Assembly (NCBI RefSeq): GCF_000412695.1
Contig: NC_021499.1
Location: forward strand, 1,922,001-1,986,000
From: Pseudomonas resinovorans NBRC 106553
GTDB lineage: Bacteria > Pseudomonadota > Gammaproteobacteria > Pseudomonadales > Pseudomonadaceae
Length of the DNA: 64,000 nt
Reading direction: 5' to 3'
Positions within the stretch are counted from its first letter, which is position 1. Every line of letters starts with the position of its first letter. A program made the translations under genes and the position numbers. Shown one piece after another: positions 3,864 through 33,388 of this stretch. Below the pieces are notes generated by a model. That model saw only the letters and a list, made by a program, of their open reading frames with translations. It made no database searches and was not told the DNA's origin.

Positions 3864-4379
3864 TCAGCCGATCACCTGGGGCGGCGTGTGCAGCAGTCGC
3901 GGGCAATCGCGTAACTGCAGCCAGGTATTTCCGCGCCAATGCAGCACCTCCAGCTCCCGGTCCAGCCACTGCATCAGGGCGCGGTAGGGCAACTGGCCGC
4001 CGATGCGCGCTTCGTGGCGCAGGCGCGGCACCACCTGCTGGGTGAGCCATTGGCGGATGCAGCGGTTTTCCGGGTGGTAGTAGAGAATCAGCACGGCGTA
4101 CACGCCGGACTCGCTGATCAGCAGGTCTTCCTCATAGTCCCCATGGCTGTTGCGCAGCCAGGCGCGTTGCAGCTGGTCTTCGTCCAGATTGCGCTGCACT
4201 CGCTCGGGCTGAAGCGGGTGGTTGATCAGCCGCGCCAGGTCGCTGGCGACAAACCAGGCTTCATCGTCCAGCAGCACGGCGCGCAGCTGGCGCTTGTGGC
4301 GGATGAACTGGGCGGGCATCAGGACTTCGGCGTCCGGGGGAGGGGCGGGGTGGAACTGGGGGAACTCGGGCATATCCAT
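3864..4379 (-). CDS. BRO-N (phage antirepressor-like) domain protein
   Basis: 171 residues. Residues about 22-115 match the BRO N-terminal fold found in phage antirepressors and baculovirus BRO proteins: FIRHKRQLRAVLLDDEAWFVASDLARLINHP, then NLDEDQL and LLISESGVYAVLILYYHPENRCIRQWLTQQVVPRLRHEAR. There is no phage C-terminal domain; the tail ends in LQLRDCPRLLHTPPQ. Such domains bind DNA in characterised relatives, so a regulatory role is likely but the target is unknown. ATG at 4379 leaves only three bases after the AGAGG site; ATG at 4373 would give better spacing. The upstream leader is unusually structured. Confidence 0.75.
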   Translation of the reverse strand: MDMPEFPQFHPAPPPDAEVLMPAQFIRHKRQLRAVLLDDEAWFVASDLARLINHPLQPERVQRNLDEDQLQRAWLRNSHGDYEEDLLISESGVYAVLILYYHPENRCIRQWLTQQVVPRLRHEARIGGQLPYRALMQWLDRELEVLHWRGNTWLQLRDCPRLLHTPPQVIG

Positions 4380-4500
4380 TTACCTCTGCTTGATTGAACA
4401 GCTTTCTTAGGGCTGTTGGAGTCGGGAGCTAAGAAACCCCAAGCAGAGGGCCGGACGTATTCCCCTTTCGGGTCTTGTATTAGCCCGCTCCCGACAGAGC
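4380..4500 (-). promoter_or_regulatory. Structured 5' leader of the BRO-N gene with sequestered ribosome site
   Basis: Perfect complementary pairs, given on the + strand: CCTCTGCTT 4383-4391 with AAGCAGAGG 4441-4449 (the first is the complement of the ribosome-site strand); AACAGC 4397-4402 with GCTGTT 4412-4417; TTTCTTAG 4403-4410, which fills the loop of that hairpin, with CTAAGAAA 4429-4436; and GTCGGGAGC 4421-4429 with GCTCCCGAC 4487-4495. Together they allow an outer helix hiding AGAGG, a loop-to-strand pseudoknot and a competing long-range helix. They could instead be DNA operators. Function is inferred, pairings are seen. Confidence 0.5.
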
Positions 4501-4535
4501 AGAGTTTTGTGCGGGCGCGAGTATGCCGCAGGCAC

Positions 4536-4563
4536 AAAAAAGCCGCTGAGCTTTCGGGAGCGG
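4536..4563 (-). terminator. Probable intrinsic terminator upstream of the BRO-N leader
   Basis: Read on the - strand: CCGCT (4563-4559), an 11-base loop, AGCGG (4547-4543), C, then six T. It would end transcripts arriving from the broken ATPase gene. CGGGAGCGG at 4555-4563 is also the exact complement of CCGCTCCCG at 4485-4493 further into the leader. Confidence 0.55.
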
Positions 4564-4752
4564 TTGGTCCGCTGCTTGAGTAAGCGTTTCTTAGGCGCCG
4601 AGGACAGAGGTTATGGGTGGAGCGGGGGAGAGGGAAGGCAGTTGGAGTGTGGGATTTGGCTGATTGGTAGGCGGGAAATCATCTACTTTGATCACCGCAC
4701 TGAGGGGGAGTGATGTCTGGTGATGAGTGTTTTTTTGATTTTGTTTTCAGGC

Positions 4753-4776
4753 GGGTGAATGAAAATTCATTCACCC
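4753..4776. repeat. Perfect 11-bp inverted repeat after the ATPase gene
   Basis: GGGTGAATGAA, AA, TTCATTCACCC. It lies 20 bp beyond the ATPase stop codon. There is no T-run on either side, so it is not a classic terminator; it may be an RNA 3' hairpin or a binding site. Confidence 0.5.
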
Positions 4777-4796
4777 TGATCCTGTTCTAAGCGTAA

Positions 4797-5879
4797 TTAG
4801 CTTGCGCTCTCTTCTGCCTCTCGTTGTGTGATTGCGTTTCCACACCCCGGGCAAGTGTTTCTCTCCCACGCATGCTTCATCTTGGGCGTGATCTCGAATC
4901 CGCATGTCCGGCAGGGGAACATTTCACCCTCCGTAAGCTTGCGTTGTTTGATTATTTTGCAAGGGTCATAAATGTATCTTCTGACTCTGTTGTGAATGTC
5001 TTCGTACCTTGTAATGAACTGAAATTTCTTGTCTCTTTGATGGTGGTCGTAGGTACAAGAGTAACTCAGAGCATATATGGATAATTTGTTTTTGATAGAG
5101 CTTTCTTTTGCGCTTACTCGATCCATTCGTTTGTGAAGTAGTCGCTGATAAATTAGCTCGGAGAAATCTATTTCTGCCAGCGCTGAATGATTTTCAGGTG
5201 TTTCCTCCACCGCGACATGACTCGTTTTGTTTCTTATTGCGAAGTCTTCTAGATCTCTCCAGGCAGCCATTGCGTGCGGGGTCGAATTGAAATTGAGTAG
5301 CTTCTTTTCTCCATCGGACTTTATGGCATCTTTGATCATGGAGGCCGAGACGTATTGGAATGCCCCGCCACGCTTAAGAGGCATACTTCTGTATGCTACG
5401 AATTCACTCCATGCGTGGACAAGAATTGTACCGAAATCTCGAGGGTTCCCCATTGACCCCATAATCAGTAACTCGAAGTTCTTCTTGTTGTTGATAAGGA
5501 CTGAGTTAGATATGTCTGGCCTATGCAGGTGGTGCTGGAGGCGTTTGTCAATAAAGTCTTGGAAATACTTTATGCATGATTGTTGGTCGCTTTCATATAT
5601 GAGCGATTCGTCCAAGTCTATTCGGTGCTGAAGATCATTTCCGATAGAGAGGGGGTGTAGTGTTCCACGATAGGGTACGTATGCAATCCAGAAGTAAATA
5701 GGATTATCAATTATTTTATTTATATAGTTGGCAAGAAATTTTTGTGCATCATTTTCGTAGTAAAGTTTTTCCCATTCATCGATATAGAATGTTATTGTTT
5801 TTATTTTTAGTGTTTTAATTATTTTATTTAATGTGGTGGAGATGTGTTCTATGTCTAGGTAGCTTATATATTTGGAGGA
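4797..5879 (-). pseudogene. 3' fragment of disrupted P-loop ATPase with C-terminal zinc ribbon
   Basis: 360 codons open to the stop, starting at the IS3-family element. A Walker B-like strand is seen early (TITFYIDEWEKL), followed by a helical region and a four-cysteine zinc ribbon near the end (CRTCG ... CPGCG). The layout recalls ORC/CDC6-like AAA ATPases annotated in bacterial accessory regions, but the assignment is by general resemblance. Base composition is far more AT-rich than neighbours, as is typical of transferred DNA. The partner fragment with Walker A is at 7111-7424. Less protein separates Walker A from Walker B than expected, so part of the gene seems lost. Confidence 0.7.
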
Positions 5880-5941
5880 TGAATCGCCCCTAGTTTCGTA
5901 GACACCTCCAAGCCTCATAATGAGGCCCATTAGGAGGTGCC

Positions 5942-6220
5942 ATGAGCAACCAGCGTTACCCCGAAGAATTCAAAATCGAAGCGGTCAAACAAGTGACCGA
6001 GCGCGGCCTCCCCGTAGCCGAGGTGGCAGCGCGGTTAGGCATGTCGGTGCATAGCCTGTATGCCTGGATCAAGCGCTACGGCAAGCCCCAGGCGCAGCGG
6101 CAGCAAGACGACGATCAGCAGGCCGAACTGCGTCGTCTGCGCGCCGAACTCAAGCGAGTGACCGAAGAGCGAGACATCCTAAAAAAGGCCGCCGCGTACT
6201 TTGCCAAGGAGTCCGGCTGA
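5942..6220 (+). CDS. IS3-family transposase OrfA (helix-turn-helix/leucine zipper)
   Basis: 92 residues: an N-terminal helix-turn-helix (YPEEFKIEAVKQV ... VAARLGMSVHSLYAWIKRYG) and a heptad-type zipper (QAELRRLRAELKRVTEERDILKKA). It binds the element ends and dimerises. A slippery A AAA AAG at 6181-6187 near the 3' end allows -1 frameshifting into orfB, giving the active OrfAB fusion. AGGAGGTGCC precedes the ATG. Confidence 0.9.
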   Translation: MSNQRYPEEFKIEAVKQVTERGLPVAEVAARLGMSVHSLYAWIKRYGKPQAQRQQDDDQQAELRRLRAELKRVTEERDILKKAAAYFAKESG

Positions 6221-7092
6221 AGTACGCCTTCATCAGCAAGCTGTCGGTGGAGTACCCGGTTCGACGTCTCTGCCAGACCCTGAAAGTGCATCCCAGCGGT
6301 TACTACGCCTGGCTGACCGAGCCGAAATCCGTACGCGCCAAGGAAGATCAGCGCCTACTCGGGTTGATCAAACATGCCTGGCTGGAAAGCGGTGGGGTCT
6401 ACGGCTATCGCAAGATTCACGACGACCTGCGTGAGCTGGGGGAGTCCTGTGGCCGGCACCGCGTGGCTCGCCTGATGCGAGGAGAAGGGCTGCGCTCACA
6501 GACCGGCTATCGGCGGCGCCCCGGCTATTACGGCGGCCGGCCAACGGTGGCTTCGCCCAATCGCCTGGAGCGGCAATTCAACGTTAGTGAACCGAACAAG
6601 GTCTGGGTCACCGACATCACCTACATCCGCACCTATGAAGGCTGGCTGTATTTGGCGGTGGTGCTGGATCTGTTTTCACGCCAGGTGATCGGCTGGTCGA
6701 TGAAGCCACGGATGTGCAGCGACCTGGCTATCGATGCCCTGTTGATGGCGGTGTGGCGGCGCAAGCCCAAGCAGGAAGTGATGATCCACTCCGACCAGGG
6801 CAGCCAGTTCAGCAGCTCGGACTGGCAGAGCTTCCTCAAGGCCAACAACCTGATCAGCAGCATGAGTCGACGCGGTAACTGCCACGACAACGCGGTGGCG
6901 GAAAGCTTTTTCCAGTTGCTGAAGCGGGAACGCATCCGACGAAAAACCTACGGCACCCGCGAAGAAGCCCGGAGTGATGTGTTCGATTACATCGAGATGT
7001 TTTATAACCCCAAACGCCGGCACAGCAGCGCTATGCAGCTATCGCCAGTGGAGTTTGAAAAGCGTTATTTCCAGAGCTTGGAGAGTGTCTAG
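6187..7092 (+). CDS. IS3-family transposase OrfB (DDE integrase), read by -1 frameshift
   Basis: The frame is open from the A6G slip site (6181-6187) to TAG at 7090-7092, so it is most likely made as an OrfAB fusion rather than from its own start. It contains the HTH_21 region (LIKHAWLESGGVYGYRKIHDDL) and the rve integrase core with all three acidic residues: D in WVTDITYI, D in IHSDQGSQF and E in AVAESFFQLLK. It is complete, with no inactivating change seen. In the fusion it catalyses copy-paste transposition via a circular intermediate, as known for IS3 relatives. Confidence 0.9.
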   Translation, partial: GRRVLCQGVRLKYAFISKLSVEYPVRRLCQTLKVHPSGYYAWLTEPKSVRAKEDQRLLGLIKHAWLESGGVYGYRKIHDDLRELGESCGRHRVARLMRGEGLRSQTGYRRRPGYYGGRPTVASPNRLERQFNVSEPNKVWVTDITYIRTYEGWLYLAVVLDLFSRQVIGWSMKPRMCSDLAIDALLMAVWRRKPKQEVMIHSDQGSQFSSSDWQSFLKANNLISSMSRRGNCHDNAVAESFFQLLKRERIRRKTYGTREEARSDVFDYIEMFYNPKRRHSSAMQLSPVEFEKRYFQSLESV

Positions 7093-7110
7093 GAAAGCCG
7101 GGGCGATTCA

Positions 7111-7424
7111 TTTAGATATATGGTGAGATTGCCGTGGTCGAATATGTTTTGGTTGACTTTGTGGCGTGCTAGAAGGAATAAGTGAGTTTTTCCAGTCCCG
7201 CGGAGACCTTGCAATACCCCACTGGAAGATCCTGTGTGGGAAATCAGTTTGCTTAAGTTGTCCTTGACGTCTACATGGGTTTCGGAAAGTTCATTTATTT
7301 TTTCTGCAGAAGCATCAAGGCTCAAATCAAAGTCGGCGCGAAGGTCAGAAAATGATTTTGTTATTTTGCGTACGAGATCTTGGTCTTTCACAATATCTCG
7401 TAGTTTGACTTTTTGTTTGGACAT
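7111..7424 (-). pseudogene. 5' fragment of disrupted P-loop ATPase (Walker A part)
   Basis: 104 codons from ATG 7424 (MSKQKVKLRDIVKDQD) up to the IS element. It has a Walker A motif in LQGLRGTGKTHLF and the following strand NLTIYLN. The remaining coding part is 4797-5879. The coding bases left on the two sides total 1397, not a multiple of three, and no duplicated target exists, so the original frame cannot be rebuilt by removing the IS. The start lies only 13 bp beyond the T-run of the nrdB terminator and lacks a clear ribosome site, so expression would need readthrough or a promoter near 7500-7540. Confidence 0.7.
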
Positions 7425-7437
7425 AGTCGTCTTAGAA

Positions 7438-7468
7438 TAAAAAAGCCCCGCACTTGGCGGGGCTATAA
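7438..7468 (-). terminator. Intrinsic terminator of nrdAB
   Basis: On the - strand AGCCCCGCC, loop AAGT, GCGGGGCT then seven T. It is located 70 bp past the nrdB stop and overlaps the presumed leader of the ATPase gene. Confidence 0.8.
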
Positions 7469-7539
7469 CCTTTCTTTTGCTGCCCCAAATTTCCATTTCA
7501 GGTAAAGCGTTTATATTTTCCTAATGTCTTGACCCGGAC

Positions 7540-33061: not shown

Positions 33062-33112
33062 TTCCCTGGCTGATCCATCGGGTTTGACGCTGTTCCCCCA
33101 ACCCTCTAACCT

Positions 33113-33320
33113 TCGCCGCTGCCTCAGGTGCCCCCTTGGTTTCGACCCAGGGAGTGAAACAGGGAAGCCGGTCCATTCCTTCGAAGAATCCGGCGCTGCC
33201 CCCGCAACGGTAGGCGAGTAGAACGCCGCAATCGGCCACTGTGCACTGCACGGGAAGGCGCGGCACGGGAGCTCAGGCTCCACTCGCAAGCCCGGAGACC
33301 GGCCTGGTGCAAGCAGGGCA
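33113..33320 (+). promoter_or_regulatory. Cobalamin riboswitch
   Basis: Conserved elements in order: AGGTGCCCCC near the 5' side, GAAACAGGGAAGCCGGT, CTGCCCCCGCAACGGTA, and the B12 box AAGCCCGGAGACCGGCC at 33288-33304. Spacing matches the class-I adenosylcobalamin aptamer. It precedes the TonB receptor gene by about 70 bases and should shut off the receptor and following cob genes when coenzyme B12 is plentiful. Confidence 0.93.
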
Positions 33321-33388
33321 TCGCGGAGCCTTCCGCATGCAGTACCCCCTATAGATGTCGCGCGGGTGGCACGACGGAGATCCAGACC

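Follow-up and report, generated by a model that had tools for sequence, protein, structure and literature searches.

What controls a small antirepressor-like BRO-N gene of Pseudomonas resinovorans NBRC 106553, when the leader in front of it is packed with segments that are perfectly complementary to each other? Within positions 4380-4563 of the window, by which we mean the whole 64,000-nucleotide stretch of chromosome that was analysed, the leader holds five perfect arms of at least 8 bp: 4383-4392/4440-4449 (10 bp), 4403-4410/4429-4436 (8 bp), 4421-4429/4487-4495 (9 bp), 4485-4494/4554-4563 (10 bp) and 4505-4512/4532-4539 (8 bp). Across 200 dinucleotide-preserving shuffles of the same positions, such arms number 0.24 on average and 2 at most, and five are never reached. 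An earlier note on this DNA had taken the arms for a translational switch or an elaborate operator, for which it knew of no described RNA class. Here we present an analysis of the leader and its relatives that leads to another arrangement, which we hold to be probable: an RNA of the sRNA-Xcc1 family (Rfam RF02221), complementary to two pairs of targets in its own operon, is likely released from the leader by cutting and would silence the operon by binding both.

The identity of the RNA is settled by its covariance model. Contrary to the view that no RNA class fits, the leader is a member of the sRNA-Xcc1 family, matched over the full length of the model (1-87); this is the sole leader match among 4227 Rfam families and the sole match in 4250-4800 at E <= 5. 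Other candidates, namely a riboswitch, a tRNA or some further Rfam class, were dropped, since Rfam gave sRNA-Xcc1 there, and ARAGORN listed no tRNA or tmRNA genes in the whole window; an integron attC site was set aside on a judgement by eye alone. The pairings can be interpreted on the minus strand, which is also that of the BRO-N gene, and where the order is a1, b1, a terminator-like element, the RNA (stem P1, hairpin P2, hairpin P3 with b', then a'), a2, b2 and the BRO-N gene (Table 1).

Table 1. Observed and predicted features of the leader and the gene that follows it, with positions in the window.
Feature	Position	Strand	Details and basis
Predicted weak sigma-70-like promoter	4608..4636	-	TTCCCT (4636-4631), 17 nt, TAACCT (4613-4608)
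a1, upstream copy of target a, CTAAGAAAC	4594-4586	-	9-bp complement to 4429-4437
b1, upstream copy of target b, CAAGCAGCGG	4569..4578	-	pairs with b'
Predicted intrinsic terminator	4536..4563	-	5' arm CCGCT (4563-4559), 3' arm AGCGG (4547-4543), then C and TTTTTT (4542-4536)
sRNA-Xcc1 family RNA (Rfam RF02221)	4413..4495	-	71 bits against a gathering score of 53
Stem P1, 5' strand, GUCGGGAGC	4487..4495	-	Rfam model, complement search
Hairpin P2, highly conserved core, UAAUACAAGACCCGAAAGGGGAAUA	4458..4482	-	Rfam model, leader alignments
Antisense segment b', CCUCUGCUUG, in hairpin P3	4440..4449	-	complementarity, covariation
Antisense segment a', UUUCUUAG, sharing its last base with P1	4429..4436	-	complementarity, relatives
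Stem P1, 3' strand, GCUCCCGAC	4421..4429	-	Rfam model, complement search, covariation
UCCA after P1, reminiscent of a tRNA acceptor-stem end; may be a signal for RNase P	4417..4420	-	N-C-C counts
Hairpin exposing target a2, CUAAGAAA (4410-4403), in its loop	4397..4417	-	complement search, folding
b2, CAAGCAGAGG, includes predicted ribosome site AGAGG (4387-4383)	4383..4392	-	pairs with b'
BRO-N gene, antirepressor-like	3864..4379	-	171-codon frame; Pfam Bro-N E 1.8e-8

The gene encodes a small protein that matches several anti-repressor families of PHROGs (best E 2.1e-8) and no NCBIfam or PADLOC family at E <= 1e-3. Its true start is probably the second ATG (4373-4371), since ACG replaces the first ATG in relatives such as loci L011 and L022. 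At the other end of the leader, a consensus promoter scan listed nothing; the predicted promoter was recognised by eye from a comparison of 15 loci, and relatives L043, L050 and L276 have TTGACC-17-TACCCT at its position. The upstream target a1 falls within the loop of a small possible hairpin, GCG...CGC (4584..4598, minus strand), and the last five bases of b1, AGCGG (4573-4569), form a predicted antiterminator arm.

Read in this order, most of the arms described before find a place. The 9-bp pair proposed over the AGAGG ribosome site (4383-4391 with 4441-4449) is present and actually extends to 10 bp: it is the pairing of b' (4449-4440, in the P3 loop region) with b2 (4392-4383), and relatives support it. 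The 6-bp hairpin with a 9-nt loop (4397-4402 with 4412-4417) is the predicted fold of the target piece taken alone, which is as stable as its shuffles (z -0.05) and leaves b2 single-stranded, while the complementarity of its loop to 4429-4436 over 8 nt proved to be the pairing of a' (4436-4429, after P3) with a2 (4410-4403, in the hairpin loop just before b2), for which related sequences give family-wide support. The 9-bp pair 4421-4429/4487-4495 is the closing stem P1 of sRNA-Xcc1 and is likewise backed by relatives. When the search was extended to 4612, an extra 9-bp arm appeared (4429-4437/4586-4594), which is the upstream a1 site and had been absent from the earlier note.

Two of the arms were left out of the mechanism. 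The pairing of 4485-4493 with 4555-4563 exists as noted, here over 10 bp (4485-4494/4554-4563), and its conservation across the family did not hold up: over 189 loci the cognate mean run is 4.98 against 4.83, with 101 of 20,000 permutations as high, and over 69 clusters 1,550 of 20,000 are as high, so this pair was dropped. The hairpin 4505-4512/4532-4539 joins the U-run of the terminator to an A-run just before the RNA. Its runs in relatives (4.65 against 4.00, equalled in none of 20,000 permutations) are not random, and only 9 of 43 clusters reach 6 nt; with family support this weak, it was excluded.

Does the RNA fit its own targets better than those of other loci? The sRNA-Xcc1 model spans the RNA alone and not the targets, and 264 RNA instances were parsed in 251 of 328 loci. 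Downstream, 204 of the 264 were usable and 163 were left after dereplication, the 60 omitted having either no frame that starts 15-110 nt after P1 or a long P3 segment. Over these 163 loci the complementary runs of a and b together average 12.63 for cognate and 8.97 for mismatched partners, a value that none of 20,000 permutations reached, and the outcome was the same with 115 and with 56 clusters; in all these permutations relatedness is handled through dereplication only. The b2 run, of at least 6 nt in 120 of the 163 loci, sits at a median of -16 to -9 relative to the start codon, and a precedes b in all 95 of the 163 loci in which both downstream runs reach 6 nt, the other 68 having no such run at one or both sites. 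The cognate partner is strictly the best for a and b together in only 38 of 163 loci, a low count that is explained in part by relatives sharing specificities.

Upstream of the RNA the same holds among 189 loci, where runs of at least 6 nt are found for a1 in 157 and for b1 in 163, with none of 20,000 permutations as high in either case; mismatched pairs reach 6 nt in 31% (a) and 27% (b) of cases, the upstream stretch being longer than the downstream one. Both upstream runs are this long in 144 of the 189 loci, and among these a1 comes before b1 in 136 and a run of at least four T follows b1 in 133. An alternative measure, the duplex energy of the whole a'/b' region against the 90 nt downstream, also favours cognate partners on average (-22.47 against -17.54 kcal/mol in 191 sequences; none of 20,000 permutations). 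Its ranking of individual sequences was poor, with the cognate on top in 6 of 191, perhaps because the complement of the ribosome site is partly shared, and the longest exact complementary runs were adopted instead. Within the 6.48-Mb genome of P. resinovorans, the exact bipartite target occurs at two sites, the a1b1 and the a2b2 of the leader, and a reversed control pattern occurs nowhere; the search covered the exact bipartite pattern.

Compensatory changes, the comparison that the earlier note had proposed for homologous leaders, are present. From a dereplicated subset of 66 leaders, in which a' had to carry TTCTTA and the ribosome site had to be of the AGG type, we restricted the pair counts to 38 aligned leaders from Pseudomonadaceae of the same class as the window leader, because the alignment of all 66 mixes b' classes that are out of register. 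In these 38, every one of the 262 cells (100%) of b1:b' holds a standard pair, and both sides have changed at 5 of the 7 pairs (44 cells), a result seen in 0 of 500 shuffles; partners slid along the alignment are paired in 17-65%. The pairing of b' with b2 is kept in 94.1% of its 371 cells, and 4 of its 10 pairs show double changes, a number that 2 of 500 shuffles reach. P1 is paired throughout (100%), and 2 of its 9 pairs have changed on both sides (34 of 500 shuffles). Target a2 and its partner a' are nearly invariant here except for the last pair, so that this set is uninformative on a':a2. In 4 of the 38 leaders, those with b' CCUCUAGGUG, b1 matches and b2 is out of register; together with the full b1:b' pairing, this makes the upstream b1 site the stricter of the two. 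Most of the 38 have b1 and b2 that are the same decamer but for one base (NNNNNAGCGG and NNNNNAGAGG), so a single antisense decamer can serve both. Judged from these alignments, b', b1 and b2 change together between loci.

The second target leads directly to the question of termination. The last bases of b1, AGCGG, are complementary to CCGCT (4563-4559), which is itself the 5' arm of the predicted terminator, and the 3' arm AGCGG is followed by CTTTTTT (4547-4536). A simple terminator scan listed nothing at the leader, because its loop limit is 8 nt and this loop has 11. Among relatives, a terminator-like element is found in 160 of 200 unique loci with enough upstream sequence, in 152 of those 160 after a b1 run of at least 5 nt; an arm able to pair with the 5' arm of the terminator is present in 101 of these 152, against 10.5 expected from shuffles, and none was found in the other 51. 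Where it exists, the start of the arm overlaps the end of b1 by 1-2 nt (5th-95th percentile). The lowest-energy fold from b1 to the U-run uses the antiterminator arm in 37 of 38 leaders, and when b1 and the arm are barred from pairing, the 3' arm of the terminator is paired in 37 of 38, compared with 19 when they are free; the upstream leader as a whole (4610-4540) folds no more stably than shuffles (z 0.20). On these folding models, antisense pairing at b1 would likely promote termination. It had been argued before that simple antitermination is unlikely here, since the segment 4485-4493 lies beyond the T-run; control of termination nevertheless appears likely, exerted by antisense binding to b1 instead of by that segment, because the second target site, upstream of the stretch first noted, is fused to the predicted terminator switch.

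A sequence signature that would fit processing follows P1: among 200 loci, 163 have N-C-C there and 147 have R-C-C, the frequency of CC elsewhere being 0.06. The leader RNA is probably cut by RNase P at the foot of P1; for the C4 RNAs of phages P1 and P7, PMC5320573 describes processing of the 5' stem end by RNase P. The RNA fold itself is moderately more stable than its shuffles (z -1.86). In the mechanism that we propose, transcription would start just before a1, and the AGCGG arm at the end of b1 would first pair with the 5' arm of the terminator, so that the polymerase passes. The RNA would then be freed from the leader, probably by RNase P at the base of P1, and its b' would act twice: on b1 it would remove the antiterminator arm and let the terminator form, and on b2 it would hide the ribosome site and block translation. 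The terminated a1/b1 leader could in turn act back as a decoy, in the way that short IsrK reportedly activates its operon in Salmonella. Synthesis of the BRO-N protein would then normally be repressed and would set in only once the RNA is titrated or runs low. Of the translational switch first envisaged, control at the RNA level over the ribosome site of the antirepressor-like gene thus stands as the best reading, mainly by an antisense RNA and its targets and not by mutually exclusive folds.

The nearest rival, and the one closest to the earlier note, is a switch purely in cis, in which the segments would pair within one mRNA as a pseudoknot of P3 with the ribosome site and no free RNA would be made. 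By position the RNA and its targets do share one transcript, and b' could pair with b2 in cis; yet the second target, a1/b1, lies upstream and is kept at least as strictly, the tRNA-like NCC after P1 fits processing, and the founding member of the family is described as a discrete 88-nt RNA of Xanthomonas campestris (PMC2996969), which together make a purely cis switch improbable. A further idea is that the P2 core binds a ligand or protein, with antisense pairing as the output. The core, UAAUACAA-ACCC-GAAA-GGGGAAUA, is conserved far beyond what pairing needs (window 4458-4482, in all aligned relatives), the C4 consensus has nothing similar, and P2 may have a protein or RNA partner; the same conservation may however serve folding, stability or processing, and a sensor would supplement the antisense mechanism and not substitute for it. 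We give the sensor a small chance.

BRO-N proteins are thought to bind DNA, and b1, b' and b2 amount to two direct copies and one inverted copy of one sequence, so the three could instead be repeated operator sites for the BRO-N protein that change along with its binding specificity. Against this, the pairings accommodate G-U (8 U-G cells at one position of b':b2 and 27 at two positions of P1), b2 lies on the ribosome site and b' inside an RNA hairpin, and the identical layout stands before SymE genes in 8 loci, all of which leaves the operator reading very improbable indeed. Somewhat less remote, and still quite unlikely, is the assumption of the Xanthomonas and Xylella papers that the RNA mainly controls many distant genes. 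It draws on the description of sRNA-Xcc1 as virulence-linked and the 212 predicted targets of its Xylella homologues (both in PMC12189769), and on a cited control by HrpG/HrpX (PMC12189769, PMC12444791). The exact bipartite target, counted by exact matches only, is confined in this genome to the leader locus itself, which speaks against distant genes as the main targets, though some may serve as side targets.

The antisense reading, with its two targets on either side of the RNA, has precedents on other scaffolds. C4 of phage P1 has the annotated order a1, b1, C4, a2, b2, as in the leader, within an operon with an antirepressor gene. Two features of C4 (RF01695) recur here: a' and b' find their complements in a2 and b2, at the ribosome site of the gene that follows, and a further target pair, a1/b1, lies upstream of the RNA. 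The gene here is antirepressor-like as well, and its control by the RNA is predicted. The scaffold, by the covariance model, is the one shared with sRNA-Xcc1 of Xanthomonas campestris. The C4 model leaves the leader unmatched both at its gathering score and at E <= 5, which places this RNA outside the Rfam C4 family, and the sRNA-Xcc1 model in turn leaves the C4 of P1 unmatched; P2 of C4 differs from P2 of the leader RNA, and the target in P1 is icd, followed by ant. Inspection by eye of the c4 leader of P1 (L264, 956-1020) finds b1 and the arms GCGG, CCGC and GCGG-TATTTTT, a three-arm layout like that of our leader, so antisense-controlled attenuation may apply to P1 as well.

IsrK/STnc1160 of the Salmonella prophage Gifsy-1 is comparable in that a terminated RNA and, downstream of it, a processed RNA with complementary sequences both precede an antirepressor gene, and read-through yields the mRNA; short IsrK has been shown to activate in trans, something the leader could also do. 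The CI RNA of satellite phage P4 is processed from a leader, pairs with sites on both sides of itself and causes termination; no antirepressor ribosome site is described as its target, and we liken it to the leader by description and not by sequence (for both systems, the passages of PMC4825925 used here). The isrK (RF01394) and c4-a1b1 (RF03163) models gave no match in 4250-4800 at E <= 5. In Acinetobacter baumannii, the C4-like Group 1 sRNAs share the C4 scaffold, occur many times per chromosome and vary in their specificity loop, like the C4 loci treated below, and the available portion of PMC5320573 makes no mention of targets in neighbouring genes. For sRNA-Xcc1 itself, the excerpts of PMC12444791 used here place it upstream of symE in integron cassettes, with regulation suggested to differ from that by symR of E. 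coli, and describe no neighbour-gene targets, a/b pairing or terminator switch. Within the open-access literature, covered in part, we found no paper that names C4-type pairing or the leader of the neighbouring gene as a target of sRNA-Xcc1, and a prior report is possible.

The chromosome that carries the single sRNA-Xcc1 module also carries 18 C4 modules. These 18 loci (L325-L328 and L331-L344) score over the RF01695 cut-off and all lie outside the window, for example at chromosome positions 2283871-2283957, 5560951-5561035 and 2011892-2011976, the last beyond the window end at 1986000. Of the proteins downstream of them, 12 of 18 match Bro-N at E <= 1e-3, 8 over Pfam's own cut-off. When the 18 were compared with the window module, b' fitted its own downstream and its own upstream sequence above those of the other modules (none of 20,000 permutations as high in each test), and its own partner was strictly the best in 9 of 19 modules downstream and 11 of 19 upstream; in this comparison the boundaries of b', which were set automatically, are in error at L335 and uncertain at L332 and L328. 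At six C4 loci the downstream b run never exceeds 4 nt, and five of them (L337, L339, L342, L343 and L344) retain an upstream b1 of 7-11 nt, so that several C4 loci seem to have lost the b2 target yet keep b1.

How widely is the module spread, and what does it precede? In genome sets that overlap, sRNA-Xcc1 is matched at E <= 1e-3 in 15 of 18 genus genomes, P. resinovorans among them, in 84 of 398 from the family and in 34 of 390 from the order; at E <= 1e-4, the class set gives 23 of 369 and the phylum set 55 of 398. The 14 control genomes gave none at the E limits used, and two of them had sub-threshold matches at E <= 10. A pattern scan of IMG/VR returned at least 120 stretches, and blastn gave mostly partial matches in 11 records of phages and one of a plasmid, as well as in 50 of 5426 E. 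coli genomes. From 174 dereplicated downstream proteins we removed 34 by hand (near copies of the window protein and doubtful starts), and among the other 140, some of whose frames are possibly wrong, Pfam finds, in overlapping counts, Bro-N in 50, P22_AR_C in 16, P22_AR_N in 13, KilA-N in 13, ORF6N in 11, SymE in 9, AntA in 5, Rha in 4 and ORF6C in 4. Of four phage records fetched, three annotate the gene that follows as an antirepressor or KilA-N protein, and the fourth as hypothetical. Before the SymE-like genes, the downstream b run is 6-8 nt in all 8 loci and the upstream run at least 6 nt in 7 of 8. The flanks of the module in the genus set fall into 9 groups for 22 upstream and 15 groups for 21 downstream sequences, and one plasmid copy lies near a mer operon and a Tn3-family transposase gene; with flanks so varied and a plasmid copy, the module behaves like a mobile cassette.

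Taken as a whole, the sequences suggest a conserved antisense module whose logic is known, whose scaffold is different and whose function is newly assigned, with promoter, processing, attenuation, translation block and decoy as predictions. On balance we think it probable that sRNA-Xcc1 is a second scaffold of C4-type control, in which a variable decamer (CCUCUNNNNN in the class of the window leader) would hit both the antiterminator arm (NNNNNAGCGG) and the ribosome site (NNNNNAGAGG) for a double shut-off, diversified into switches for stand-alone BRO-N, other antirepressor and SymE genes, and with attenuation as the main effect. Since b1 is the more strictly kept, attenuation of transcription would be the principal outcome, perhaps in phage P1 too. 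If this is true, an Rfam family still discussed as virulence-linked would gain a function and exact targets, its targets would have to be sought in the gene that follows and in the terminator ahead of the RNA, and sRNA-Xcc1, the C4 of P1, IsrK and the CI RNA of P4 would express one regulatory logic on different scaffolds. The many naturally diverged sets of antisense and target, 19 of them in one genome, would also serve to study how the specificity of RNA-RNA pairing evolves.

A few smaller observations concern the surroundings of such modules. In L039, L033, L035, L040, L041, L044, L046, L052, L058 and L059 the BRO-N frame begins about 115-127 nt after P1, and in L039 a frame of about 20 codons, recognised by eye, comes first after the b2 ribosome site and resembles icd before ant in P1. 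Aggregatibacter phage S1249 (L203) has two sRNA-Xcc1-like RNAs in tandem (2505-2591 and 2739-2822) before one antirepressor gene, the second scoring under the gathering score. In the window itself, at 4797-7496 on the minus strand, transposase genes (5942-7092) sit between two frames, 7496-7089, which has a GxRGTGKT motif, and 5930-4797; neither flanking frame has a family match in Pfam, PHROGs, NCBIfam or PADLOC, and the two look like one ATPase-type gene split by an insertion element. The first transposase frame matches HTH_Tnp_1, and the element is presumably of the IS3 type. Farther along the window, at 33109-33321, Rfam places a cobalamin riboswitch with 104.7 bits.
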